Below are positions 6,890 through 48,177 of a stretch of 64,000 nucleotides of DNA, one piece after another. Location of the stretch: positions 1 to 64,000 of the forward strand of contig CAIXFN010000002.1 of the NCBI GenBank assembly GCA_903918755.1, given 5' to 3'. The notes below the pieces were generated by a model. The model had not been told where the DNA came from. It saw nothing but the letters and a program-made list of their open reading frames with translations, and searched no databases. Each line of letters opens with the position of its first letter. Position 1 is the stretch's first letter. This stretch comes from an uncultured Pedosphaera sp. Lineage in GTDB: Bacteria > Verrucomicrobiota > Verrucomicrobiia > Limisphaerales > Pedosphaeraceae. The translations under genes were made by a program, and so were the position numbers.

Positions 6890-8245
6890 ATGAGCAAAAA
6901 GTGGCAAATACCCCGTCGGCGATTTCTGCGCGGTTTGGGAACGGCAATCGCTTTGCCCATGCTGGAAGCCATGGTGCCGCCCATCTCGGTTCTGGCCGCC
7001 GCGGCGGGCGCTCCGGCCCGTAGTTTTCCCACCCGCATGGCCTTCATTTATTTGCCGAACGGCAAGGACATGGCCAATTGGATTCCCAAGACCGAAGGGG
7101 AGAATTACGAACTTCCGATGATCCTGGAGCCGTTGAAAGCCCACCAGAAGGATTTCATGGTGATCAGCGGCCTGGCGCAAAAGCACGCGGAAGCCAATGG
7201 CGATGGCGCCGGGGATCACGCCCGCGCCTCGGCGACTTTCTTGACCGGTTGCCAGGCGCGCAAAACGGCCGGGGCGGACATCAAAGTGGGCGTTTCCGTG
7301 GACCAGATTGCGGCCTCGAAGATCGGGGACCAGACCCGCCTGCCGTCCCTGGAATTGAGTTGCGACCAAAGCCGGCGCGCCGGGGAATGTGATTCTGGTT
7401 ACGCTTGCGCGTATCAATACAATATTGCCTGGAAATCGGAAAACATGCCGCTGAATCCGGAGGCCAATCCGAAGCAGGCCTTCGACCGTCTTTTTGCCGG
7501 GGCCAACCCGCACGAGACCAAGGAAGCCCGCGCGAAGCGGGAGTTGTATGACAAGAGCGTGCTGGACGCCGTGTTGGATGATGCGCGCAGCCTGCAGTCC
7601 AACCTGGGGATGACGGATCGCCGGAAATTGGACGAATATCTGAGCGCCGTTCGCGATATCGAAAAGCGGGTGGAGCAGGGCCGCAATTACGCCGTGCAGG
7701 TGCCGTCCGGGGATAGCCAACAGGGCAAGGAATACAGCTTCGAACAGCACATCCGCCTCATGTATGATTTGCAGGTGCTGGCGTTTCAAACCGACACCAC
7801 GCGGATTGCCACGTTCCTGGTGGCGCATGACGGCAGCAACCGGGCTTATCCGTTTGTGGGTGTGCCGGAAGAGCATCATGAATTGTCGCATCATGGGGGC
7901 AAGGCCGAGAAGAAGGCCAAGCTGGCCAAGATCAACCGGTTTCACACCACTCAGCTCGCCTATTTCCTGGAACGGCTCAAAGCTGTCAAAGAAGGCGAAG
8001 GCAACTTGCTTGACAACTGCATGATTGTTTATGGCAGCGGCATCGCGGACGGCGACGCCCATGCCCACCATAATCTGCCCATTCTCTTGGCGGGCAAGGG
8101 TGGGGGAACCATCCGCACCGGTCGGCACTTGAAGTTGGGCGGCCGCGTCCCGCTGAATAATCTTTATCTTTCGATGCTGGATCGCATGAACGCCCCCACC
8201 GAGCATTTCGGCGACAGCACGGGCAAAATCGCTGAATTGGCGTAA
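6890..8245 (+). CDS. DUF1552 family secreted protein
   Basis: The protein has 451 residues. The N-terminus has a twin-arginine-like export signal (RRRFLRGLGTAIALPMLEAM) and a cleavable hydrophobic stretch. The body matches the DUF1552 family: ARSFPTRMAFIYLPNGKDM near residue 42, a DHARASATFLTGC segment near 108, and a C-terminal region with YGSGIADGDAHAHHNLPILL around 380-400. DUF1552 proteins almost always accompany DUF1592 cytochromes and are thought to work with them outside the cytoplasm, by an unknown reaction. Here the partner is upstream, but a phzF gene on the opposite strand lies between them, so they are probably transcribed separately. Confidence 0.88.
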   Translation: MSKKWQIPRRRFLRGLGTAIALPMLEAMVPPISVLAAAAGAPARSFPTRMAFIYLPNGKDMANWIPKTEGENYELPMILEPLKAHQKDFMVISGLAQKHAEANGDGAGDHARASATFLTGCQARKTAGADIKVGVSVDQIAASKIGDQTRLPSLELSCDQSRRAGECDSGYACAYQYNIAWKSENMPLNPEANPKQAFDRLFAGANPHETKEARAKRELYDKSVLDAVLDDARSLQSNLGMTDRRKLDEYLSAVRDIEKRVEQGRNYAVQVPSGDSQQGKEYSFEQHIRLMYDLQVLAFQTDTTRIATFLVAHDGSNRAYPFVGVPEEHHELSHHGGKAEKKAKLAKINRFHTTQLAYFLERLKAVKEGEGNLLDNCMIVYGSGIADGDAHAHHNLPILLAGKGGGTIRTGRHLKLGGRVPLNNLYLSMLDRMNAPTEHFGDSTGKIAELA

Positions 8246-8287
8246 ACCTGACCACGACTTCTTTTCCCAGCCAAGTGTGGGGGACTC

Positions 8288-9628
8288 ATGAACTCACGGC
8301 CCAAACGCTGGTTGGGATTCTTGGTGCTGGCAGCGGTGCTGTTTGGCTTCGGAAGCCTGATTCTTGGACCGTCCGGTTCCAAATCGAATCGCCGCTACGT
8401 TTTGGCGGATGGCTCCGTGTTGTCCTTGGGGCCAGTTTCTTTTGGGCTCAATCGGACCTTGCGACAGTATACTGTAACCGGCTGGCGATTGCGGTTGGGG
8501 CAAAGATTGCCCGCCTCCGTGTCAACCCGACTGGGTTGGCTGCCGGGGGGCTCGGCAATTACACTTGGGGGAGATCCCGCCCAGAGCAACCTTTTGGTCT
8601 CAACGATTTGTGACTTCGCCACCAATGCCACTTTTTTGACACCGCGGGTCCAAATATTTGATCAAGCCGGAAATGTGTTTGACGGAGTCGAGGGGCAAGG
8701 AAGCCTCGGAAGCTTCGGCGCCAAGCGAATCACCCGAATGGATGTGTGGTCTTTGCCAGCGTTTCCCCGGCGGGAAAAGGAACTGGGGCTGCGTATTCTT
8801 GCGGAGTCCAATGGGGTCTGGCAAGCCGTCGCCGAATTCTCCTTTCCCAACCCGGTCCGGGGGGATTACCCGAACTGGCGTCCCGACGCGCTCTCCACTG
8901 CCCGAAATGTCGGCGATCTCGCGATCGCCATGGTGAATTTTAGTTCCGTTCCCGGAGGGCGGGAGCCTTCAAAATTGGCGTACACGAAAATGGAATTCGA
9001 GGTGCGCGAGGCGGGGGTCGCGTCCTTGGGAATCTGGGAAGTTGCCGGTCTGGAGCTCGCTGATGCCACGGGAAATCACTGGCATCCCCGCCTCTTCGGG
9101 AACAACACCGGGGAGGAAAGAATGAAATTTACCCCAGCCAACTTTATGGGGGCGCTCTGGCCCGGGGAAGCCGCCTGGAGGATCAAGGCCGAATTCTCGC
9201 GCGCTACCAATTTTCCGCCGGAAGAGTTGGTAACCGTGGCGGGAATTCCCGTGCCGGAGTCCAAAGACGTTATCGCCCTCAATCTCACAACCAATATTGC
9301 CGGAGGTCAGATCAAGTTACTGTTTATCAGCGGGGCGGAGCAGGAACAACCCGGCAACCTGAAATGGAGTGGTTTCCATGACCGGGTCAACTTGTCCGTT
9401 CGGACAGACCTGCCGGCTGAGCCGATTCGCCGATTGCGCATGGTGAAGATTACCGATGACGGAGGGCTGGCGGTGAAGGACCTCATGGGCCATGGCGACG
9501 CGAATGGCCTCCAAGCCACCTACGGGTTTGCTCCCCATGAAAGCGCCCGATTCCTCACGATCACGTTCGCCGTTCCCGCCAGCCGTTTCGTGGAGTTTCT
9601 GGCGCGACCCGATTTTCTGAAACCGTGA
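8288..9628 (+). CDS. Secreted or membrane-anchored protein of unknown function
   Basis: The protein has 446 residues and starts 42 bp after the DUF1552 gene, so the two may be co-transcribed. Residues about 8-26 form one hydrophobic segment after a basic start (MNSRPKRW), a signal anchor or signal peptide. The rest is soluble and beta-rich in character, with no recognised motif. The phrases LGSFGAKRITRMDVWSLPAFPRREKELGLRI and LGIWEVAGLELADATGNHWHP resemble uncharacterised verrucomicrobial secreted proteins. The base composition matches its neighbours. No function is proposed. Confidence 0.7.
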   Translation: MNSRPKRWLGFLVLAAVLFGFGSLILGPSGSKSNRRYVLADGSVLSLGPVSFGLNRTLRQYTVTGWRLRLGQRLPASVSTRLGWLPGGSAITLGGDPAQSNLLVSTICDFATNATFLTPRVQIFDQAGNVFDGVEGQGSLGSFGAKRITRMDVWSLPAFPRREKELGLRILAESNGVWQAVAEFSFPNPVRGDYPNWRPDALSTARNVGDLAIAMVNFSSVPGGREPSKLAYTKMEFEVREAGVASLGIWEVAGLELADATGNHWHPRLFGNNTGEERMKFTPANFMGALWPGEAAWRIKAEFSRATNFPPEELVTVAGIPVPESKDVIALNLTTNIAGGQIKLLFISGAEQEQPGNLKWSGFHDRVNLSVRTDLPAEPIRRLRMVKITDDGGLAVKDLMGHGDANGLQATYGFAPHESARFLTITFAVPASRFVEFLARPDFLKP

Positions 9629-9869
9629 TTCCAAGAGCCGGAGGACACCCCAAAAAGTTCAACAGGAGCAAACAGATAACAGAGAAGGTGGAAGAGGGAA
9701 AACTGATCAAAACGGCGCCAGCACAATTTGAACAGAAGGCCGCTAAGAGGGGAAAGAATTAACCGGGATGGAATTGGATTTCTCGGTTTCCTCGGTTGAC
9801 TCCTATCCAAAACCTCAGCCTGCGTTTGAACAAGCGCACCTGAAGTCAAAACCATGAACCCGGGCATTG

Positions 9870-36717: not shown

Positions 36718-36810
36718 GCCTAACGATACAAGCATAGTGAGCCGGTCCACGGAAAACTTGGATTGCAACCGGAGCGCGATGGCCGGCGCGGCTGGAGCAC
36801 GTGATTAGGC
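36718..36810 (-). other. attC-like site
   Basis: Minus strand: R'' GCCTAAT (36804-36810, containing the TAA of the GIY-YIG gene) and a perfect R' GTTAGGC (36718-36724), length 93 bp. Inner arms GCCGGTCC and GGCCGGC can pair. Central TTGGATT is at 36758-36764 on the plus strand. Confidence 0.75.
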
Positions 36811-37653
36811 CTGTTCGTCGAGTTGTTTGAGTGATTTGCCATCCTTGGTCTTCCAGGATGTTAGTCCATTTGCGCTTCCGCCGTGAATTACGACGGCTGC
36901 TGCGGAGGGACTGGTGAATTCTGCGTTCTTGGTGAACGAGAGGAAACCCTCCTTCTCGATTAGCGTGCCTTCGGCGAGGAGTTGTTTACGTTGGGCAATG
37001 ACATACGGATAGCTCTCCGCAGAAGGACGCTCCTCCAAGACGGCTGTGGATCCTTGAAATATCACGAAGCCATTAGCCGTGCGTTGGCCGCGTGCCTCAG
37101 CTCCCTTGATGCGGCAGAAGAGGACACCGCCGGGTTGGGCCTTTGCGGCGGGTTGTGCAATGGGCGCAAGGATGTCAGACCCGAGCACGGGTAGGAGCTG
37201 TCGAATGCGGGCGAGAAACACCTCCATGTCTTCGCGGTCCGACTCAGGCAGACGTGAGCCGCCTGCCTGATTCTGTTCAAGCGTGAATCGGTTGATAGTG
37301 GCGGCCTCCGCAAGGAGGCGGCTCTCAAGATACCTCACATGGGCTTTGGTCAGGTTCTCGTCCTTGCTGACGAACACGATGGCAGAAACCCAAAATTCCT
37401 TGGTTTTGTGTTGCTTGAGGCGGTCTCGGATGACTTCCGCCTCGCCAATGTAAGCGCGGGGTGCGTTGGTAAATGGATCGCTGCCGATGAGGATATAGAC
37501 CCCGGCCTTGTCGAGTTCTTCGCGTGCTAGAAGCTCATCTAGCTCCGTGCGAGGCGCGGCAACTGCTTTGCCCGTCCAATTGGAGATTTCGGCAGTGCGC
37601 AGACTCTTCGCGTCCCCGCGTGGCAGAAAGAGTTTGATCGTCGCGGAAGTCAT
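36805..37653 (-). CDS. GIY-YIG nuclease-domain protein with DUF4357
   Basis: The protein has 282 residues. The GIY-YIG core is visible as KAGVYILIGSDPFTNAPRAYIGEAEVIRDRLKQHKTKEFW (about residues 49-88), with the tyrosines and the following Arg in the usual order; E129 or a neighbour would serve as metal ligand. The C-terminal DUF4357 domain spans about 190-280 (IKGAEARGQRTANGFVIFQGSTAV...EFTSPSAAAVVIHGGSANGLTSWKTKDGKSL). Such proteins are found with restriction systems and in mobile cargo. The start at 37653 lies 14 nt after R' GTTAGGC. Confidence 0.85.
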   Translation of the reverse strand: MTSATIKLFLPRGDAKSLRTAEISNWTGKAVAAPRTELDELLAREELDKAGVYILIGSDPFTNAPRAYIGEAEVIRDRLKQHKTKEFWVSAIVFVSKDENLTKAHVRYLESRLLAEAATINRFTLEQNQAGGSRLPESDREDMEVFLARIRQLLPVLGSDILAPIAQPAAKAQPGGVLFCRIKGAEARGQRTANGFVIFQGSTAVLEERPSAESYPYVIAQRKQLLAEGTLIEKEGFLSFTKNAEFTSPSAAAVVIHGGSANGLTSWKTKDGKSLKQLDEQA

Positions 37654-39198: not shown

Positions 39199-40869
39199 TT
39201 ATGGGGCCGGGGGGGCGGTTGATTTCCTGCGGCGTAAGGTGCGGAGGATGGGGAAAGCGGCGAAGGCGACGCAGAGCCAGCCGAAACGGTCGCCGTAGCG
39301 GTGGTAATAAGTTTCGACGCGCGGGTTCGCGGGGTCCAGGAGGGGGACGCGGACGATGAGGAAGCCGGGGCCGTAGATGCCGTGCTCGGGGGTTTCGAGA
39401 TGGTTGCGGAGGCGGCCGTGGGCGTCCGCCCAGCCGGTGAGGCCGTTGTTGGCGCAGCGGACCAGCGGGAGGCCATTTTCGACGGCGCGGAAGATGGCGC
39501 AGGCGGCTTGTTGCCATTGGGCCGCGCCTTCGCCGAACCAGCCGTCGTTGGTCAGATTGATCAGGAAATCGGTGTCGCTGGCGGCGTATTCGCGCGCGAA
39601 ATCGGGGAAGATATCTTCGAAACAGATCAGCACGGAGAGGTTGGCCTTGGGTTCGTTGAGTTTGAAGGGGACGGGGCCGGTGCCGGGAGTGAAGCCGCCC
39701 TGAATGGGGGTGAGGTATTTGAGGAACGGGAGCCAGCGGACGAGGGGGACGTACTCACCAAAGATGACCAGTTGGCGCTTTTTGTAAACAGCATCGAACC
39801 CGCCGTCCGGCGCCAGCAGAAAGCTGCTGTTGTAGTATTCGCCGTCCTCCCAGGACGTGGCATTGGGCGGGAGTTTGGCGTCGTCGGCGCCGATGATGAG
39901 CCAGAGGTGGTTGCTGCGGGCCAGGTCGGAGAGGGCGGCGGAGAGGTCGGGTTGGTAGCGGGGAACGCCGGGGACCACGCCTTCGGGCCAGATCAGGACG
40001 TCGGGGTGATTCGTGAGGGCGGCGCGGGAGAGGTCCAGGAGCTGCTGCATCCGATTAGAACTGGAGTGGGCGTCCCAGATGACGGTTTGCGGGATGCTGG
40101 GTTGGATGAGGGCGAGTTTGAGTTCGGGTCCGGGGGGAGTGGGTCGCATGACCTGCCAATAGCCGGAGGCGTAGGTGAAGGCGACCACCGTGAGGGGCAG
40201 GATTGCCTCAGCAGCCCAGGCGGAACGGAGCGCGGGGCGTCCGATGATGGCCAGCGCGCCGCAGAGGAGGGAAACGGCGAACCAGACGATCAGGAAAGCC
40301 ACGCCGTAAACGCCGGTGTAGGCGGCGATCTGGATCAACGGGACCATGCGATACTGGGAGGCGCCGAGCAGGTTCCAGGGAAAACCACCGAGGAAGCGGG
40401 TGATCATCATTTCCAGGGCCACCCAAAGGGCGGCGCTGAACAGGCACCACATAAATCTTTGGGACCAACTGGTCGTCAGGAACCGTTTGGCCAGTTCGGC
40501 GAGGTTGGCCGGGGGACCGCCTTCGCCAAGGCGTCCGGGGAATTGTCGCCAGGTGAGCCAGACCCACACGCCGGGGTAAAGGGCCATGAAGGCGGACAGG
40601 GCCGCCCAGCCCAGAATGGGCGCGCCGATGACAGGAATTCGCAGCAACCAGGAAAGGGAGATGAGGTAATGCGCCAGGCCGGCGGCATAGCCGAGGCGGA
40701 AGGTCATTTTGGGCGAACGACCGGCCGCCGGGAGAAGGATCAGGGCGGGCGCGATCCAGGCCAGACCGGCCAGGCCGATATTCGGGAAAGCGCAGGCGAG
40801 GACTGCCCCGGCGGCCAAGGCCCAAGGGTAGCGGCTAACTAAAAATGATTTCAGGCGGCGCTTAAACAC
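39199..40869 (-). CDS. lnt: Apolipoprotein N-acyltransferase
   Basis: The protein has 556 residues from the GTG at 40869. An AGGAG stands 10 nt upstream, and MFKRRLKSFLVSRYPWALAAGAVLACAFPN is a normal Lnt start; another GTG at 40932 is in frame but poorly spaced. Six to seven membrane helices fill the N-terminal half. The nitrilase domain shows the catalytic glutamate (about E296) in LIWPEGV, the lysine in YKKRQLVIFGEYVPL and the cysteine in LSVLICFEDIFP. It adds the third acyl chain to lipoproteins at the periplasmic face of the inner membrane. The 5' end abuts a MITE-like element. Confidence 0.93.
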   Translation of the reverse strand: MFKRRLKSFLVSRYPWALAAGAVLACAFPNIGLAGLAWIAPALILLPAAGRSPKMTFRLGYAAGLAHYLISLSWLLRIPVIGAPILGWAALSAFMALYPGVWVWLTWRQFPGRLGEGGPPANLAELAKRFLTTSWSQRFMWCLFSAALWVALEMMITRFLGGFPWNLLGASQYRMVPLIQIAAYTGVYGVAFLIVWFAVSLLCGALAIIGRPALRSAWAAEAILPLTVVAFTYASGYWQVMRPTPPGPELKLALIQPSIPQTVIWDAHSSSNRMQQLLDLSRAALTNHPDVLIWPEGVVPGVPRYQPDLSAALSDLARSNHLWLIIGADDAKLPPNATSWEDGEYYNSSFLLAPDGGFDAVYKKRQLVIFGEYVPLVRWLPFLKYLTPIQGGFTPGTGPVPFKLNEPKANLSVLICFEDIFPDFAREYAASDTDFLINLTNDGWFGEGAAQWQQAACAIFRAVENGLPLVRCANNGLTGWADAHGRLRNHLETPEHGIYGPGFLIVRVPLLDPANPRVETYYHRYGDRFGWLCVAFAAFPILRTLRRRKSTAPPAP

Positions 40870-40872
40870 AGG

Positions 40873-41036
40873 CGCAGGACTCCTGATCCCGGATCGGGAA
40901 TATTGTGGGACCGGGAAGAAGCATGCTGCCACCTCTCCTCAACCCTCTCCGCCATTGTGAATGGCAGTGAGGGAGAAGAGGGCGGGTCGGCAATCGTTGC
41001 GGGCTGCGCAAGTTCCATAAGCTCAGGAGTCCTGAA
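40873..41036. mobile_element. MITE-like element with terminal inverted repeats
   Basis: An 11-bp perfect inverted pair, AGGACTCCTGA (40876-40886) and TCAGGAGTCCT (41023-41033), extends to about 14 of 16 matches. Inside are a C-rich stretch, a CCATTGTGAATGG palindrome and a mirrored CTCTCC...GGGAGAAG arm. There is no coding sequence. No clear target-site duplication was found. It lies between lnt and the epimerase gene. Confidence 0.5.
40880..40884 (-). promoter_or_regulatory. Shine-Dalgarno AGGAG for lnt, inside the MITE-like end
   Basis: AGGAG on the minus strand, 10 nt before the GTG at 40867-40869. It is part of the inverted-repeat end of the element, and it decides the start chosen for lnt. 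Confidence 0.5.
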
Positions 41037-41082: not shown

Positions 41083-42114
41083 TCATAGGAAATACTTGAG
41101 AATGCTCAAGACACCTTGCTTAACAGCCGAGCGGTGATGCGAAGCGCCGTGCGCCTGGAAGATGGCTTCCCGGTTTTTGACATACCAATCATAGCTCTGA
41201 CAGAACATCTCCTGATTGGAGAAGCGCGGCTGCCAGCCGAGTTCGGTTTTGGCTTTGGTGATATCGAAATACATCGAACGGCCGTACATGAGCGCGTGGT
41301 AGGGGCCAAGCGGGGACAGGCCCAATCGGCTGGTCAGGTTCATGAACGTCACGGCCGGGGCGAGGGGAACTTTGCGCACGCGGGAGCCGGTGCCGGCGTG
41401 GGCGCATAAGGCTTCCAGGGTTTCCTTCATGGAGCCAAAACGGTCCGTGCCGCAATTGTAAGCGGCGGCGCCGGGGCGGGCGGCGGCCAGGATGCAGGCT
41501 TCCGCCAGGTCATCGGCGTGGACGAATTGGTAGAGGTTGTCGCCGGAGCCGAGGACGGGGACGTTGTAGCCGGTACGGATCCATTCAAAGAGGATTTGGA
41601 AAATGCCCAGCCGACCGTGGCCCATGATGGTGCGGGGACGGATGAGGGAGACGTCCAAGCCCTGCGCGACGTAACGCTGGACCAGGTCTTCGGCGGCGCA
41701 CTTGGCGCGACCGTAGGCCTCGGCCGGGGCGGGCGCGGTGTGTTCCTTGACCGGATTGGTTTTGGGCGCGCCAAAGATGGCGCTGGAGGAAACGTGAATC
41801 ACCTTGCCAACGCCGGCGGCGCGCGCCGCCCGCAATAAGTTTTCGGTGCCACCGACATTAACCGATTCAAACAAATGCCGATCCTTGGCCAGCGGCACCT
41901 GGGCGACGCAGTGGTAAACCGTGGCGCAACCGGCGCAGGCGCGGGCAATGGCGGTTTCATCCCGGATGTCGCCGGCGAGAAATTCCACGGTCGCAGGCCG
42001 GTCGTCGGCGTCCCGCAAATCGAAGATGCGAACCGGGACGCCCCGGGCGAGCAGGCGATCGCGCAGCAGGGCGCCAAAATAGCCGGAACCGCCGGTGATG
42101 AGGGCTGGTTTCAT
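41083..42114 (-). CDS. NAD-dependent epimerase/dehydratase (extended SDR)
   Basis: The protein has 343 residues from the ATG at 42114. The Rossmann motif is ALITGGSGYFGALLRDRLLARG, followed by FLAGDIRDE. The active-site Tyr-x-x-x-Lys is in AYGRAKCAAEDLVQRY with the upstream Ser in VIHVSSSAIFG. RPRTIMGHGRLGIF and YQFVHADDLAEACI are further extended-SDR features. It reduces or epimerises a sugar-nucleotide or a lipid-linked ketone; the substrate is unknown. It is the last gene of a four-gene operon with another SDR (16 bp apart), a GMC oxidoreductase and a HAD-UbiA prenyltransferase. Confidence 0.88.
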   Translation of the reverse strand: MKPALITGGSGYFGALLRDRLLARGVPVRIFDLRDADDRPATVEFLAGDIRDETAIARACAGCATVYHCVAQVPLAKDRHLFESVNVGGTENLLRAARAAGVGKVIHVSSSAIFGAPKTNPVKEHTAPAPAEAYGRAKCAAEDLVQRYVAQGLDVSLIRPRTIMGHGRLGIFQILFEWIRTGYNVPVLGSGDNLYQFVHADDLAEACILAAARPGAAAYNCGTDRFGSMKETLEALCAHAGTGSRVRKVPLAPAVTFMNLTSRLGLSPLGPYHALMYGRSMYFDITKAKTELGWQPRFSNQEMFCQSYDWYVKNREAIFQAHGASHHRSAVKQGVLSILKYFL

Positions 42115-42130
42115 GACGACAGCGGGCAAC

Positions 42131-43189
42131 TCAAAAACGGATCCCCTGACTCACACACCACTGGAGAGAGCGGCGCATGCCTTCTTCCAGGGCGATCGTG
42201 GGATTATAGCCCAATTCCTTTTCCGCGCGGGCCACGGAGCAAGCGATGGTTTTGTTCATTTCCGAGAGGACGTGGATTTTTTGCTGATAGAGACCCAGCG
42301 ATTGCAGGGTGGCGTCCACCAAGTAGGCCACCTCGCTGGCGAGGCCGGGCAGGCGCATGCGCTTGTGGGCGCAGGTGGCGCCAAACTCGGTTTCGAGCAG
42401 GCGCTCGATGGTCGCGATGATTTCGTTCATCGAGTAGGGCTGGCGGTCGGCGATCCAATAAGTTTGGCCGCGGGCCTGCGGTGTGAGGGCGGCCAGCAGC
42501 AGGCCCTGGCAAAGGTTGCCGATGTAACTCATGGAACGGAGGTTCCTGCCGGAGCCGACGACGGGCGCTTTACCGTCGCGGACCATTTCAAAAAACAAGG
42601 TCTGGCGCGCGGGTTGATTCGGGCCGTAGAACCACGGCGGGCGGATGATGACGGTTTCGATTTTTTCCTGCCGCGCCTGCACGGCCAGTTCCAGCAGCAT
42701 CTTGGAACGGCCGTAGCCCAAGTACGGATGGTAGGGCGAGTTTTCGTCGAACAGGTGATCGGGGTGGGGATTACAGCCGCAGGGGGAATTGGAGGAAACA
42801 ATCACGGCGCGGCGGACTTTGGCGGCGATGGCGGCATCGAGCAACTGGGTTCCGCCCCGGACATTGATCTCTTGAAAATCCGCGATGCGCCGGGGATGGA
42901 TGATCCCGGCGGTGTGGAAAAGGACGGCTCCGGCGGCATTGGCGCAGAACCGGGCGCAATCGGCGGCTTCCCGCAAATCCCCGGTCACGATTTCAACCTG
43001 GGGGGAGATTTGGCGCAAGCGCGTGGTGTCTTCACCGGGCAGCACCAGGCAGCGGACGCGCAGACCGGATTGGGGCTGACCCAGCGCGGGGTGATCAGGA
43101 AGCCCGCGTACGAGCGCCTCCACGAGACTGATGCCAAGCCAGCCGGCGGCGCCGGTCACCAAGACCTGATTGGTTTGAAATCCGTCCAT
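42131..43189 (-). CDS. 3beta-hydroxysteroid-dehydrogenase-like extended SDR
   Basis: The protein has 352 residues from the ATG at 43189. The N-terminal VLVTGAAGWLGISLVEALV binds NAD(P). FHTAGIIHPRRIADFQEINVRGGTQLLDAA resembles the 3-beta-HSD branch of the extended SDRs. The catalytic Tyr-x-x-x-Lys is in YLGYGRSKMLLELA with VIVSSNSP before it. The substrate is probably a hydroxylated ring or lipid, but this is only by family. It lies 9 bp after the GMC gene and 16 bp before the next SDR, so these genes are co-transcribed. Confidence 0.85.
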   Translation of the reverse strand: MDGFQTNQVLVTGAAGWLGISLVEALVRGLPDHPALGQPQSGLRVRCLVLPGEDTTRLRQISPQVEIVTGDLREAADCARFCANAAGAVLFHTAGIIHPRRIADFQEINVRGGTQLLDAAIAAKVRRAVIVSSNSPCGCNPHPDHLFDENSPYHPYLGYGRSKMLLELAVQARQEKIETVIIRPPWFYGPNQPARQTLFFEMVRDGKAPVVGSGRNLRSMSYIGNLCQGLLLAALTPQARGQTYWIADRQPYSMNEIIATIERLLETEFGATCAHKRMRLPGLASEVAYLVDATLQSLGLYQQKIHVLSEMNKTIACSVARAEKELGYNPTIALEEGMRRSLQWCVSQGIRF

Positions 43190-43198
43190 AAGCAAGCG

Positions 43199-45034
43199 TC
43201 AGTGTTTTCCCAAAAACCGCAAGACATTGCGGCGGGCCAGGGCCATGACCGTGCCCTGCGGATTCACGCCGGGAGCACCCGGCAACAGGCTGGCATCCGC
43301 CACCCAGAGATTCCGCAAACCCCGCACGTGCCCAAACGAATCAGTCGCGCACTGGGCTGGATTCTCACCCATCGGGCAGGAAGAGAAAAGATGAATGGTC
43401 ATGAGATTGCCCTGTCCCTCGGGTAAGGAAGATGGCAAGTCGCGCAAGTCTGCTTCACGGCGGATTGGACGACTACCGGACACCGCAGGAAACACCGCCG
43501 TGGCACCACCCGCGAACAGGGCCGCGCCCAGCTTGCCCAATCCGTCGGCGAGATCCCGGCGATCCGCGGCGGTGATGCCGTAGCGCACGAGGGGATCGCG
43601 GCGTCCGGGTATCGGGCGGACGGTGCCGCCGCCGGTGCCAGTGATCATGGCATAATAGGCCGCGAGATGGGGCCATTGCGCTGGCAAAGTACGACTGGCG
43701 CCCGGATGATCAAGCAGGGCCAGCGCGAGGTACGCCGGACTGCTCACCGAACAACCGAAGCCCAGGCGGGGCGAGAATTCCTTGACCTGATGGGACGGAA
43801 CACCGAGGTCAGGCCCATTGACCGCGTCGGGGAATTCCGCCACCAACTTGACGGTGGGATGAACCCGGAGGGAATTGCCGACATTGTCCGTGATGCCGCT
43901 CCGGCGGAGCAGGGCGGGGGTCTGGACGGCGCCGCCGCACACGAAGAGCTTCTCCGCGAAGAGGCGGCCAAGACCGGATTCCGGATGCGTGTAATCCAGG
44001 GTCCACCACGCGCCATCCTGCCGGATTTGGCGCACGGTGGTTCGCGGCAGCAAGCGTCCGCCCGCGCGCAGAAAGCGGGGGATGTAGGTCTCGGTCATGG
44101 ATTGCCGCCGACCGGGTCCGGCTGGTTCCGCCCCGGCGGGGTAGCGGTACCAGCGAGGCACCTCGAAGGACTTCCAACCCAATTGGCCGGCGCCGGCATG
44201 CAGTTTTAGCGCGGCGGCGGGATTTGGCCCCGGTCGGAGGGAAACGGAGAGTTCGCGTTCCACGGCGGCAAAGTGCGGGAGCATTTCCCGCTCGGAGAGT
44301 TCGGCCACCTGAAAATCGGCGCGCCATTGGTCGAGGATTTCCGGCGGCGTGCGGTGGTACAAACCGCTGTTGATTTCGCTGCCACCCCCGACACAACGGC
44401 CTTCGACGTAGGCGATCTTGTCGGTACCCAAGGCCACGGTCTGGCCGCCGTTGCGATATTTTTGCACCATTTCGATGCGCGAGAACGGTTCGCACGAATC
44501 GAGCGGCAGGTATGGTCCGGCTTCGAGGAGCAGGACATCGTGGCCGGCTTCGGCCAGGTAACAGGCAGTGAGGGCGCCGCCGGGACCGGAGCCGAGAACC
44601 ACGATTTCCGAATCCGGATTGGCGGGTGGCTGGGATAAGATCGCGGATGGGGGCGGCGGACGCGGCGAGGAAACGGACGGGCGACTAAAGAGCGCCAGCA
44701 GCGTGAGGCTTTCGAAGTAGCGGATGAAATCGCGTTGAAAACTGGCGGGGGAGCCCCGCCAGGCGGCAATCTGGCGTTGCCGGTTTTCCGGGGGTTGCGC
44801 ATGGAAGGGTTTGCCCCCGGACCGACAACCAAACAGATCAAAGGCGAGGGCGGCAGCCGTCATGGGGCCGCCCAGGTAATCCGGCAGGCGCGCGTGTTGC
44901 TCCAAGACGAACCGGGTCAGGTCATTGTAAGGCGGGGCATAGGCGGAATCGCCCGGCGGCGCGTGCACACTGGCGAGAGACCAAACGAGCGCGGAGGCGG
45001 TCGCGGAGAAGGGTGAAGCCAGGAGCGAAATCAT
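43199..45034 (-). CDS. GMC-type FAD-dependent oxidoreductase
   Basis: The protein has 611 residues. An N-terminal helical segment of about 140 residues precedes the FAD-binding Rossmann motif IVVLGSGPGGALTACYLAEAGHDVLLLEAG (about 143-172). The GMC middle has KIAYVEGRCVGGGSEINSGLYHRTPP, and the C-terminal HLFSSCPMGENPAQCATDSFGHVRGLRNLWVADASLLPGAPGVNPQGTVMALA carries the substrate-side His/Asn region. It oxidises an alcohol to a ketone or aldehyde with FAD. Its operon partners (two SDRs, UbiA) suggest a polyprenyl- or ring-type lipid. Gap to the UbiA gene is 14 bp. Confidence 0.9.
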   Translation of the reverse strand: MISLLASPFSATASALVWSLASVHAPPGDSAYAPPYNDLTRFVLEQHARLPDYLGGPMTAAALAFDLFGCRSGGKPFHAQPPENRQRQIAAWRGSPASFQRDFIRYFESLTLLALFSRPSVSSPRPPPPSAILSQPPANPDSEIVVLGSGPGGALTACYLAEAGHDVLLLEAGPYLPLDSCEPFSRIEMVQKYRNGGQTVALGTDKIAYVEGRCVGGGSEINSGLYHRTPPEILDQWRADFQVAELSEREMLPHFAAVERELSVSLRPGPNPAAALKLHAGAGQLGWKSFEVPRWYRYPAGAEPAGPGRRQSMTETYIPRFLRAGGRLLPRTTVRQIRQDGAWWTLDYTHPESGLGRLFAEKLFVCGGAVQTPALLRRSGITDNVGNSLRVHPTVKLVAEFPDAVNGPDLGVPSHQVKEFSPRLGFGCSVSSPAYLALALLDHPGASRTLPAQWPHLAAYYAMITGTGGGTVRPIPGRRDPLVRYGITAADRRDLADGLGKLGAALFAGGATAVFPAVSGSRPIRREADLRDLPSSLPEGQGNLMTIHLFSSCPMGENPAQCATDSFGHVRGLRNLWVADASLLPGAPGVNPQGTVMALARRNVLRFLGKH

Positions 45035-45048
45035 GCGCCAGACCTCGC

Positions 45049-46521
45049 TTACCAGTGGGTCGCCAGCCAGAGGATGGCCAGCGTGGCGCCGCCGATGGCG
45101 TAGCTCACGGCGTCCCGGAGCGCGAACACAATGGGGTCATCATGGACGAGACCGCGATGGGCCAGAAGCCAGACGCGGCTGATCCAATACAGTAGGAGCG
45201 GACAAACCGCCAGGAGCAGGATCGGGGAATGATAGAGGCCGGCGACTTCCGGGCTGTGGACATAGAGCGCCAGGACCAGAACCGCCAGTCCGCCATTCAC
45301 GATGCCGAGGGTGGCCAGGAATTCGAGGTCGCGGGCGGAATAGCCGCGGCCGCGGGCGTCCTGTTCCTTGTCCGCGCGCAAGGTCCGCAGCTCGGTGAAG
45401 CGTTTCACCAAAGCTAGGCTGAGAAACAGAAACATCGAAAAAGCCAGCAGCCAGGGCGAGTATTTTATCCCGGTGGCGGCGTGACCGGCAATCAGGCGCA
45501 TGGTGTAGAGCACCGCCAGAAAGAAAACATCCACCAGCGCCAGTTGCTTCAGGCGGAGGGAGTAAGCCGTGGTCAAAACAAAATAGCCGCCGAGCACCAG
45601 GAGGAACGGGGGTGGCAGGAGGAGGGCCAGCACAATGCTTAGGCAGAAACAACCCAGAGCCAACCCAAAGCCGACGGGGACGCTGAGCGTTCCCGCGGCC
45701 AGGGGACGGGCACGTTTTGAAGGGTGGTGGCGATCCGCTTCCATGTCCAGCAGGTCATTGAGCCCATAAACCGCCGAGGCGGCCAGGCTGAAGGCCGCAA
45801 AGGCGAGTAAGGCATTGGCCAGCAGCGCGGACGGGACCAACTGATGGGACGTCAGCAGGGGAACCAGGATGATGAGATTCTTGACCCATTGATGGGGGCG
45901 CAGGGCGCCGATCAAAGCCGCGAGGAGCCGCCGGGGTTCATTGAAGACGTGGCTCACTTCGGTCAACTTCCGGGCGCGTTGAGCAAGGCGTTCGTCCGCA
46001 TTCACCACCAGGGCGCGCCGGGAGCCCTGCCAGACGGGCAGGTCCACGGTGGAGTTGCCGGCGTAGTCAAAGCCCCGGGGTCCCAAGCGCTCCGTGAGGT
46101 GCCGGACTTTGTTGTGGCCGCGGAGATTCGTGGTGCCGTCGCTGGCGACCACGTCCGCAAAGAGGCCGATATGGCGGGCCACCGGTTCGGCGAGGCGGCG
46201 GTCGGCAGCGGTGGCCAGGATCAGGGTGCGGCCGGCGCGATGCTCCGTGCGGAGGTAAGCGAGGAAAGGCTGGTGGTAGGGGAGGACCGCCACATCCAAC
46301 TCGACCCGGGCGGCAATTTCCCGCTTGAGATTGGCCCGGCCACGCGACCACCAGAAAGGGATCGCGAGCGCTTGCAGGGGCCGGCGCTTGACCAACTGCA
46401 CGAGGGATTCCCAGAGGACATCCGTGCGGATCAGGGTGCCGTCCAAGTCCACGCAAAGGGGAACGGAATCCGCGGGCGGGCGGGTTATTTCGGCGGGCCG
46501 ATTGGAATCTTTTTCAAGCAA
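45049..46521 (-). CDS. HAD-phosphatase and UbiA-family prenyltransferase fusion
   Basis: The protein has 490 residues from a TTG at 46521, the only in-frame start that keeps a short lead before the HAD motif; other starts cannot be excluded. The N-terminal HAD part has CVDLDGTLIRTDVLWESLV and, later, FDYAGNSTVDLPVW. The C-terminal half is a polytopic UbiA domain with the first aspartate motif NDLLDMEADRHHPSKRARPLAAG (about residue 255) and YSLRLKQLALVDVFFLAVLYTMRL. This resembles the decaprenylphosphoryl-phosphoribose synthase branch. It would transfer a polyprenyl chain and dephosphorylate the product in the inner membrane. It is the first gene of the operon. Confidence 0.88.
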   Translation of the reverse strand: MLEKDSNRPAEITRPPADSVPLCVDLDGTLIRTDVLWESLVQLVKRRPLQALAIPFWWSRGRANLKREIAARVELDVAVLPYHQPFLAYLRTEHRAGRTLILATAADRRLAEPVARHIGLFADVVASDGTTNLRGHNKVRHLTERLGPRGFDYAGNSTVDLPVWQGSRRALVVNADERLAQRARKLTEVSHVFNEPRRLLAALIGALRPHQWVKNLIILVPLLTSHQLVPSALLANALLAFAAFSLAASAVYGLNDLLDMEADRHHPSKRARPLAAGTLSVPVGFGLALGCFCLSIVLALLLPPPFLLVLGGYFVLTTAYSLRLKQLALVDVFFLAVLYTMRLIAGHAATGIKYSPWLLAFSMFLFLSLALVKRFTELRTLRADKEQDARGRGYSARDLEFLATLGIVNGGLAVLVLALYVHSPEVAGLYHSPILLLAVCPLLLYWISRVWLLAHRGLVHDDPIVFALRDAVSYAIGGATLAILWLATHW

Positions 46522-46590
46522 CCGGGTTAGGCTAGTCGAGGGGGTTGGCGATTGACAAGCGCTTAGGTTTTGGCCAGTTTGCCGCGCAAC

Positions 46591-48177
46591 ATGAACCTCA
46601 AGCGACCGGGTCTGATATTCCTGCTGGTGTTCGGTTGGAAGGTCGCGCTGTTCCTGCTTTCCACCCAGCCGGTGCCCGCCAACGACGCATTTTTTTATGA
46701 TGGCGCGGTGGTGAACCGGCTGTTGAATGGTGGCTACTTCAACCCCTCGCTGGCCGCGGCACTGCCGATTTCCGGCACGGAAGTCTTTTGCGCGTATCCG
46801 CCGCTGCACCAGGCGGTGCTGCTGGGCTGGATGGCGGTGTTCGGCGTCTCGTCCTGGACCGCAATGACCTTTCATCTGACCCTGGTGGGGGTTTATCTGC
46901 TGTTGTTGTGGGCGATTTTTCGGCGGCTGGGAACCCCGGCCTGGGCGGTGGGCATGGCGGGGATTTATGGCATCCTGCTGACCTTTCATGACCGGCCGGA
47001 CACGCTGGGACATACCCTCGGAATGGCGGCGGTGTATGCCGGGGTGCGCTGGTTACAAGGCGTGACGCGGGGGAGCTCCGGGACGGGATGGATCGCGGCG
47101 ATGGTTGCGGCGGTGGTGCTTTGCTTTTGTACCAGCCTGCAAATCGGGGCGATCTATTTCCTGCTGGTGTGGGTGTTGGTTGTCGGGGCGACGTTCACGG
47201 GTTGGACCCGGTTTCCGACGGTGGCCATGGCCGGGTTGACACTGGCGCCGGTAGCCTTGGTGGCGCTGGTTAAATTTGGCTATCCCCATTTGTGGACCGG
47301 ATTTTTGGAACATGCCCGGCAGACGCCGAGCTTCACCGGACTGCGGATGCCTTACGGGCCGGAAATTCTCAAGGTGGTGCGGACAGCGCCGGGTGTGATC
47401 GTGGTGGCGGCGCTGCTGCCTCTGGCTTTATGGCGGCAGGGGGTGGCCTTCAGGGATCGAGCGGCCGGGCGGGGAGGGGACGGTGGTATGGTGCCGGTGC
47501 ATGAATTGCTGGCGATGGCCACCCTGCTCGCGGGCTTGGCGGTCGTGCTGGCGTGCCTCTTCGTGCTGACCGCCAACACGGTGGCGATCGCGAATTACCT
47601 GCAACCGCTGCTGGTGGGTTGTTTCCTAGGGATGCTGGCGAGGGAGCGAGCGGTGGCCGCGCCGGGTGGGAGGTTTGGCTTTCGCCTGGCATTGGGATGC
47701 CTGTTGGTGGGGGCGGCCCTGGGTTCGGTCCGCGCCGTGGGCATGACCACGTGGGGATTGGCCTGTGCGTGGGATGTCAATTATGCCCAGGCCATTCACC
47801 GGGTGGACACCGAATTAAGCGCGCTGCCGTCGGGGAGTGTCGTGGTGCTTTCCTCCGCGTTTTTGTATGAAGCGGCGCGCCATCCCAATGTGCGCTGGCT
47901 GCATTCCGACTGGCTGGTACGCGCCGATCCCAACGCCGTGGATCCGGATCTCAAAGGCTTGCGGCATTTTCGTCCCCGCCGGGTGATCGTGAGCCAGTTT
48001 GATTACTACCGGCGCTACGGGGCGGTGCTGGACAAATTGCGAATGGATCCCGGGGTGGCGGCGGTGAAAGTAGACAATATGGCGCACCGGCGTCCCCCGG
48101 ATGCCTATCCGTCTTTGCAGCGGGTGGTGCAGCATATTTCCTGGGCGCCGGTGGTCGTGGAAATCGACTGGCGCTAA
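46591..48177 (+). CDS. Polytopic membrane protein, probable lipid-linked glycosyltransferase (GT39/GT87-like)
   Basis: The protein has 528 residues from the ATG at 46591 with about ten to twelve membrane helices. After the first helix an acidic loop NDAFFYDGAVVNRLLNGGYFNP occurs, typical of GT-C transferases that use a lipid-linked sugar. The helices include LVGVYLLLLWAIFRRL and VVLCFCTSLQIGAIYFLLVWVLVVGA. The C-terminal soluble part ends with RVIVSQFDYYRRYGAVLDKLRMDPGVAAV. The donor and acceptor are unknown. It is divergent from the HAD-UbiA gene (69 bp between starts), so the two may share a control region and a lipid-linked pathway. Confidence 0.7.
   Translation: MNLKRPGLIFLLVFGWKVALFLLSTQPVPANDAFFYDGAVVNRLLNGGYFNPSLAAALPISGTEVFCAYPPLHQAVLLGWMAVFGVSSWTAMTFHLTLVGVYLLLLWAIFRRLGTPAWAVGMAGIYGILLTFHDRPDTLGHTLGMAAVYAGVRWLQGVTRGSSGTGWIAAMVAAVVLCFCTSLQIGAIYFLLVWVLVVGATFTGWTRFPTVAMAGLTLAPVALVALVKFGYPHLWTGFLEHARQTPSFTGLRMPYGPEILKVVRTAPGVIVVAALLPLALWRQGVAFRDRAAGRGGDGGMVPVHELLAMATLLAGLAVVLACLFVLTANTVAIANYLQPLLVGCFLGMLARERAVAAPGGRFGFRLALGCLLVGAALGSVRAVGMTTWGLACAWDVNYAQAIHRVDTELSALPSGSVVVLSSAFLYEAARHPNVRWLHSDWLVRADPNAVDPDLKGLRHFRPRRVIVSQFDYYRRYGAVLDKLRMDPGVAAVKVDNMAHRRPPDAYPSLQRVVQHISWAPVVVEIDWR

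Follow-up and report, generated by a model that had tools for sequence, protein, structure and literature searches.

A GMC oxidoreductase and two extended SDRs beside HAD-UbiA in Pedosphaera: a probable route to a polyprenyl-phosphate-linked pentofuranose donor

Results

A run of four adjoining minus-strand genes, in the order HAD-UbiA, GMC, SDR1 and SDR2 (SDR, short-chain dehydrogenase/reductase), lies in a 64,000-nucleotide stretch of DNA from an uncultured Pedosphaera sp. (assembly GCA_903918755.1, contig CAIXFN010000002.1, positions 1 to 64,000; hereafter the window). HAD-UbiA (45049..46521) joins, according to Pfam HAD and UbiA and NCBIfam matches, a predicted PRP phosphatase (HAD domain at about 46449-46033) to a predicted polyprenyl-phosphate phosphoribosyltransferase (UbiA domain at about 45834-45154) of the polyprenyl-phosphate phosphoribose synthase (PPPRS) type. 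It is followed by a GMC oxidoreductase (43199..45034; Pfam GMC_oxred_N and GMC_oxred_C, catalytic H548 and N591) that carries a helical domain fused at its N-terminus (about 45034-44681), by SDR1, an extended SDR resembling OleD and 3beta-HSD (42131..43195, better start 43189; S-Y161-K165), and by SDR2, an extended SDR resembling HpnA and GalE (41083..42129, better start 42114; D37 and S-Y139-K143); both SDRs match Pfam Epimerase/3Beta_HSD and are 348-354 aa long. With SDR1 and SDR2 beginning at ATG 43189 and 42114, the intergenic gaps are 14, 9 and 16 bp, and coordinates and Pfam domains agree with an earlier reading made without database searches (the sequence-only reading), which had described this gene order with gaps of 9-16 bp. 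The operon probably makes a polyprenyl-phosphate-linked pentofuranose donor by means of a GMC and dual-SDR redox module.

Profiles, motifs and solved structures agree on the branch of the UbiA superfamily to which the fusion belongs. NCBIfam model NF006088 (PRK08238) matches residues 18-489 at 643.7 bits against a cut-off of 351, the second-ranked model is PRK12324, decaprenyl-phosphate phosphoribosyltransferase, and the heme and 4-hydroxybenzoate UbiA models reach 19-35 bits, far under their cut-offs (cyoE, 35 against 210; ubiA, 24 against 275). The closest solved structure is Rv3806c (8j8j, E 2.2e-31), and in the solved-structure search a generic prenyltransferase was matched at E 0.004 only. 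NDLLDMEAD (loop II, NDxxDxxxDR) and KRFTE (loop IV, RxxE) both align with 8j8j, and the HAD domain holds DLDGT, in keeping with its DxD nucleophile. The protein is placed by profile in the polyprenyl-phosphate phosphoribosyltransferase branch, and its motifs likewise predict a PRP-UbiA polyprenyl-phosphate phosphoribose synthase. A UbiA of quinone or heme biosynthesis is ruled out by the sub-cut-off cyoE and ubiA scores and by Rv3806c as the best solved relative, and the comparison with the mycobacterial transferase proposed in the sequence-only reading holds at the active-site motif. Kelly et al. 2024 (PMC11127046) demonstrated biochemically that Citrobacter youngae ORF15, with an N-terminal HAD (PRP) and a C-terminal UbiA domain, forms farnesyl-phosphate-ribofuranose from phosphoribosyl pyrophosphate (PRPP), and tested residues N247, D248, D251, D255, R366, E369 and D18; the HAD-UbiA of the window keeps the same motif residues and domain order. 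Because it belongs to this assayed architecture, phosphoribosyl transfer and dephosphorylation are well supported.

Co-occurrence was surveyed in 58 genomes of the order, with an orthologue cut-off of 1e-30 for SDR1 and SDR2. GMC, SDR1 and SDR2 are present in exactly the same 12 genomes, spanning eight families; two identical sets of 12 would be expected with a chance of ~1e-12 if independent, a figure that ignores relatedness. Many further SDR candidates per genome appeared at first look, and at 1e-30 cassette members alone remained; SDR1 and SDR2 are therefore distinct families. A genome of the same genus (G001) carries the cassette, and in G002 GMC and UbiA lie on one contig and both SDRs on another, with all four still present together. 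A UbiA partner was found in 11 of the 12 GMC-bearing genomes, the exception (G005) having a contig that ends at GMC. In three genomes (G023, G039 and G054) UbiA (31-34% identical) stands alone and HAD has a gene of its own in place of the fusion, as seen at loci L070 and L073; because separate genes replace the fusion, both of its halves can be placed in one pathway. HAD-UbiA was found also without GMC in other Verrucomicrobiota, so co-conservation runs one way. The co-occurrence of the four families across Verrucomicrobia, which the sequence-only reading had put forward as a check of its proposal, is borne out by the identical GMC, SDR1 and SDR2 sets, with this one-way link to HAD-UbiA.

The catalytic residues of the redox enzymes are highly conserved. 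His548 of GMC is kept in 78/78 sequences covering the region and Asn591 in 78/79, SDR1 keeps S-Y161-K165 in 68/68 sequences, and Asp37, S114, Y139 and K143 are present in all 72 of the SDR2 sequences. GMC_N and GMC_C domains, the FAD motif GxGxxG and the catalytic His and Asn place the oxidoreductase in the GMC superfamily, and its predicted model (pLDDT 94) aligns with choline oxidase over 449 residues (Z 40.5, rmsd 2.3); the top Foldseek match of the model is membrane-bound fructose dehydrogenase, and cholesterol oxidase is among the best solved matches. The helical domain, which takes up the first ~118 residues in the predicted model, is encoded as a separate small gene at L070, L073, L105, L110 and L210, the assignment at L210 being made by position and a short similar stretch, with no BLAST match. 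SDR1, for which the closest curated models are OleD and other ketone reductases acting on lipids, is probably a ketone reductase, and SDR2 a probable reductase or epimerase; the aspartate typical of NAD binding is present in SDR2 and absent from SDR1, and we infer a preference of SDR2 for NAD. SDR2 falls into two clades, with about 45% identity between them, that fill the same slot of the cassette and are swapped between related genomes (for example, clade A in the window, L210 and L130; clade B in L081, L105 and L125). GMC and SDR1 co-vary while the SDR2 clades are exchanged (identity-matrix correlation r 0.79 versus 0.49), and the two SDR2 clades may represent two end products.

The plus-strand gene divergent from HAD-UbiA (46570..48177, better start 46591) matched neither Pfam nor NCBIfam at E 0.001 and is a candidate GT-C glycosyltransferase on the strength of its predicted model, Foldseek and co-occurrence. 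The model (pLDDT 85) shows a multi-helix GT-C membrane fold, with Foldseek matches to ArnT (E 2.3e-6) and AftA (3.6e-4); it aligns with ArnT over 424 residues (Z 17.5, rmsd 6.0), with EmbB at Z 16.9 and Pmt2 at 19.6, and at Z 15-20 across PMT, ArnT, EmbB/C and AftB. Strong GT-C profile matches occur in 11 genomes of the 58, nine of them GMC-bearing (hypergeometric about 1e-6, uncorrected for relatedness), and at L070 a homologue (8215-9789) stands within the operon, between SDR1 and SDR2. Predicted fold and co-occurrence agree with the GT-C-like neighbour of the sequence-only reading, and the modelled enzyme probably uses a lipid-linked pentose.

A scan of named genomes, in which some titles of metagenome-assembled genomes may misname the organism, placed GMC relatives of 35-67% identity at 79 loci, distributed across Verrucomicrobia, Cyanobacteria, Planctomycetes including Kuenenia, Acidobacteria, Nitrospirae, Proteobacteria, Actinobacteria, Deferribacteres, Neomarinimicrobiota and Bacillaceae. 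Among the 51 loci flanked by 6 kb or more on each side, GMC has UbiA as a neighbour in 37, SDR1 in 40, SDR2 in 45 and all three in 28; an SMR (flippase-like) gene lies near GMC in 10, and such a gene belongs to cassettes of cyanobacteria and rhizobia and to some of those in Verrucomicrobia. In Actinobacteria, UbiA is mostly not near GMC. The rhizobial symbiotic plasmid pNGR234a holds a cassette complete in about 8 kb (L210 8034-16099, equal to pNGR234a 299625-307690), with SDR2, SMR, a small protein and GMC on one strand and, on the other, a multi-spanning protein of 658 residues, SDR1 and HAD-UbiA. It lies ~7 kb from nodS, near nodSU, with an insertion sequence element between, and is common to related plasmids of Sinorhizobium and Mesorhizobium; a nod box search for this cassette gave a single match, upstream of nodS and not beside the cassette.

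DprE1 was sought with PF04030 together with the whole DprE1 protein, PF04030 alone being incomplete: a DprE1-like gene at L201 has FAD_binding_4 only and hence was missed by it. No DprE1 was found in the genome of the window or in 11 GMC-bearing relatives by a search that recovered it from the positive controls C. glutamicum, G102 and G197, the last two being Verrucomicrobiota with HAD-UbiA and without GMC; the cyanobacteria tested held no DprE1 at convincing scores. The operon of the window has a GMC enzyme, not a VAO-type oxidase (FAD_binding_4/ALO), and no classical SDR of ~250 aa. In Peribacillus and Metabacillus, GMC stands in a single run with UbiA, DprE1 and DprE2, with no SDR1 or SDR2, and in Ilumatobacteraceae and other Acidimicrobiia DprE1 and DprE2 lie near GMC or elsewhere in the genome. 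Because DprE1 and DprE2 beside GMC would be redundant if both made arabinose, GMC does not behave as a simple DprE1 stand-in, and at least in those lineages it more likely oxidises a different position or serves the making of a different sugar. The coexistence weakens a strict replacement of DprE1: the sequence-only reading, which had set a GMC enzyme in the place of the VAO-type DprE1, is partly supported, agreeing with the 12 GMC-bearing genomes and less well with Bacillaceae and Acidimicrobiia. The likeness that it saw to an oxidise-then-reduce logic after prenyl transfer has a published counterpart, since the three-component system set out in the main text of PMC11127046 has the same logic.

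The Bacillaceae loci (L110 9908-14943 and L112 9908-14945) comprise a split small gene, GMC, UbiA, DprE1 and DprE2, plus LPG_synthase_TM, DUF212 and PMT_2. At L201 6507-12353 and L205, from other Verrucomicrobiota, HAD-UbiA has as neighbours a DprE1-like protein with FAD_binding_4, a GT2 and a membrane protein with DUF2298.

Downstream of SDR2 in the window, on the minus strand, is a gene for the apolipoprotein N-acyltransferase Lnt (39199..40932; TIGR00546). As lnt also comes after SDR2 at L060, L064, L068 and L069, we regard it as a conserved neighbour and do not count it into the pathway. Genes for HAD alone, sharing 55-59% identity with the fusion's PRP half, occur in relatives lacking GMC (L075 6861-7424 in G003, L076 6135-8390 in G048 and L077 6381-6923 in G057); that of G003 sits between a divergent GT-C gene and lnt, as though UbiA-GMC-SDR1-SDR2 had been cut out, and in G048 HAD and Lnt share one open frame. 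A protein with a C-terminal DUF4357 domain, encoded at 36805-37653 of the window, bears no relation to the operon.

Discussion

In the pathway that we propose, HAD-UbiA would combine PRPP and polyprenyl phosphate into polyprenyl-phosphate-ribose-5-phosphate, and its HAD half would take off the 5-phosphate to leave polyprenyl-phosphate-ribofuranose. GMC, with FAD, would turn one hydroxyl of the lipid-linked ribose into a carbonyl, SDR1 and SDR2 would reduce or epimerise the oxidised sugar with one or more stereocentres altered, and, after an unlinked transporter had flipped the lipid, the GT-C enzyme would move the pentose onto an extracytoplasmic glycan or protein. The first two steps are supported by homology to a biochemically characterised architecture; the later three we infer from family chemistry, co-conservation and fold. 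Several points weigh against this pathway. The whole genomes of L103, L124, L135 and L154 lack SDR1, neither SDR lies in the cluster at L110 and L112, and the module is thus not invariant; no SMR-type flippase, the only type searched for, was found in the genome of the window; and the substrate of GMC could be a different one, for example the lipid itself.

That GMC and the SDRs act not on the sugar but on a lipid alcohol of this glycan pathway, be it the polyprenyl chain or another, seems improbable to us: it is suggested by hydrophobic-alcohol enzymes among the GMC relatives, such as cholesterol oxidase, and by the OleD-type models nearest to SDR1, but the steady linkage to sugar-transferring PPPRS, flippase and GT-C genes and the sugar dehydrogenase that heads the Foldseek matches of GMC point to a sugar. 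We give scarcely any credence to a UbiA of quinone, heme or chlorophyll biosynthesis with neighbours brought together by chance, for which the superfamily fold and nothing else speaks, given the bit scores (35 for cyoE and 24 for ubiA versus 644 for PRK08238), the solved structures, in which Rv3806c far outranks a generic prenyltransferase, and the HAD fusion.

The identity of the pentose is a finer question. GMC and one SDR might form a plain substitute for DprE1 and DprE2, oxidising C2 and reducing it again to give polyprenyl-phosphate-arabinofuranose, with the second SDR auxiliary. This would fit the missing DprE1 in the GMC-bearing genomes and, at convincing scores, in the cyanobacteria tested, the parallel layout of proteobacterial plasmids (HAD-UbiA, GtrA, a FAD oxidase that is DprE1 and an SDR that is DprE2), a GT-C neighbour like ArnT, Aft and Emb, and the single SDR at some loci; we nevertheless hold it to be rather unlikely, with genuine DprE1 and DprE2 beside GMC in Bacillaceae and Acidimicrobiia, redundant if the product were identical, and with two extended SDRs where one classical SDR would be expected. 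We entertain, as a tentative possibility, that two inversions, or one at C3, yield xylofuranose or lyxofuranose, with the SDR2 clade deciding as ORF13 does in Citrobacter. Both SDRs are conserved and catalytically competent by their residues, the SDR2 clades are swapped while GMC and SDR1 co-vary, GMC coexists with DprE1 and DprE2, and there is precedent in the main text of PMC11127046 for an SDR that determines pentose identity; on the other hand, ORF13 needs no flavoenzyme, the two SDR2 clades may catalyse the same reaction, and lyxofuranose is, according to the same text, not known from solved polysaccharides. A broader form of the proposed pathway, in which GMC and two SDRs lead across phyla, including on a rhizobial symbiotic plasmid, to a pentose that bacterial glycans are not known to contain (such as lyxofuranose or another doubly altered pentose), with the SDR2 clade setting which one, is in our judgement doubtful.

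Cell walls, O antigens and the glycans of pilins are supplied from lipid-linked pentofuranoses, and DprE1 is a target for drugs against tuberculosis. If the proposed pathway is true, a second, non-homologous redox module is coupled to the same first step in settings as far apart as cyanobacteria, Planctomycetes and the symbiotic plasmids of rhizobia, and widens pentofuranose chemistry; an undescribed pentose decoration would be predicted in the culturable Planktothrix, Arthrospira and Sinorhizobium fredii NGR234.

Of the proposed pathway, the first step and the three-component logic are already known, as is the idea of redox epimerisation; the module of GMC and two extended SDRs is apparently undescribed. 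The main text of PMC11127046 has no occurrence of GMC, although it refers to Xanthomonas and Bacillus systems of greater complexity that have several candidate epimerases, left unnamed there. Open-access literature yielded no paper joining UbiA, DprE1 and GMC or describing a GMC-UbiA glycan system, an earlier mention being possible with most subscription journals outside the search, and nothing useful on the y4nG-M gene names or on lyxofuranose in bacteria.

The decaprenyl-phosphate-arabinose pathway of mycobacteria (Rv3806c, Rv3807c, DprE1, DprE2 and Emb/Aft) shares with the proposed pathway phosphoribosyl transfer from PRPP, dephosphorylation, a GT-C user and, as we read the operon, flavin oxidation followed by NAD(P)H reduction, but the oxidase of the window is GMC and not VAO, its reductases are extended SDRs and not a classical DprE2, and its phosphatase is a HAD protein. 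Plasmid cassettes of Rhizobium, Salipiger and Agrobacterium (HAD-UbiA or UbiA, GtrA, a FAD-binding oxidoreductase and an SDR) have a homologous UbiA and the same cassette logic; theirs contain DprE1, DprE2 and GtrA, whereas GMC cassettes contain GMC, SDR1 and SDR2, with SMR in many. The three-component system of C. youngae O1/O2, described in the main text of PMC11127046, consists of the PPPRS ORF15, the epimerase ORF13 and the MATE flippase ORF14, with the GT136 enzyme ORF12. The operon of the window differs from it in having a GMC flavoenzyme and two SDRs versus one SDR, no flippase gene and a GT-C enzyme not assigned to GT136, and resembles it in a HAD(PRP)-UbiA fusion whose motif residues agree, a GT-C user and an SDR that would set the identity of the pentose.

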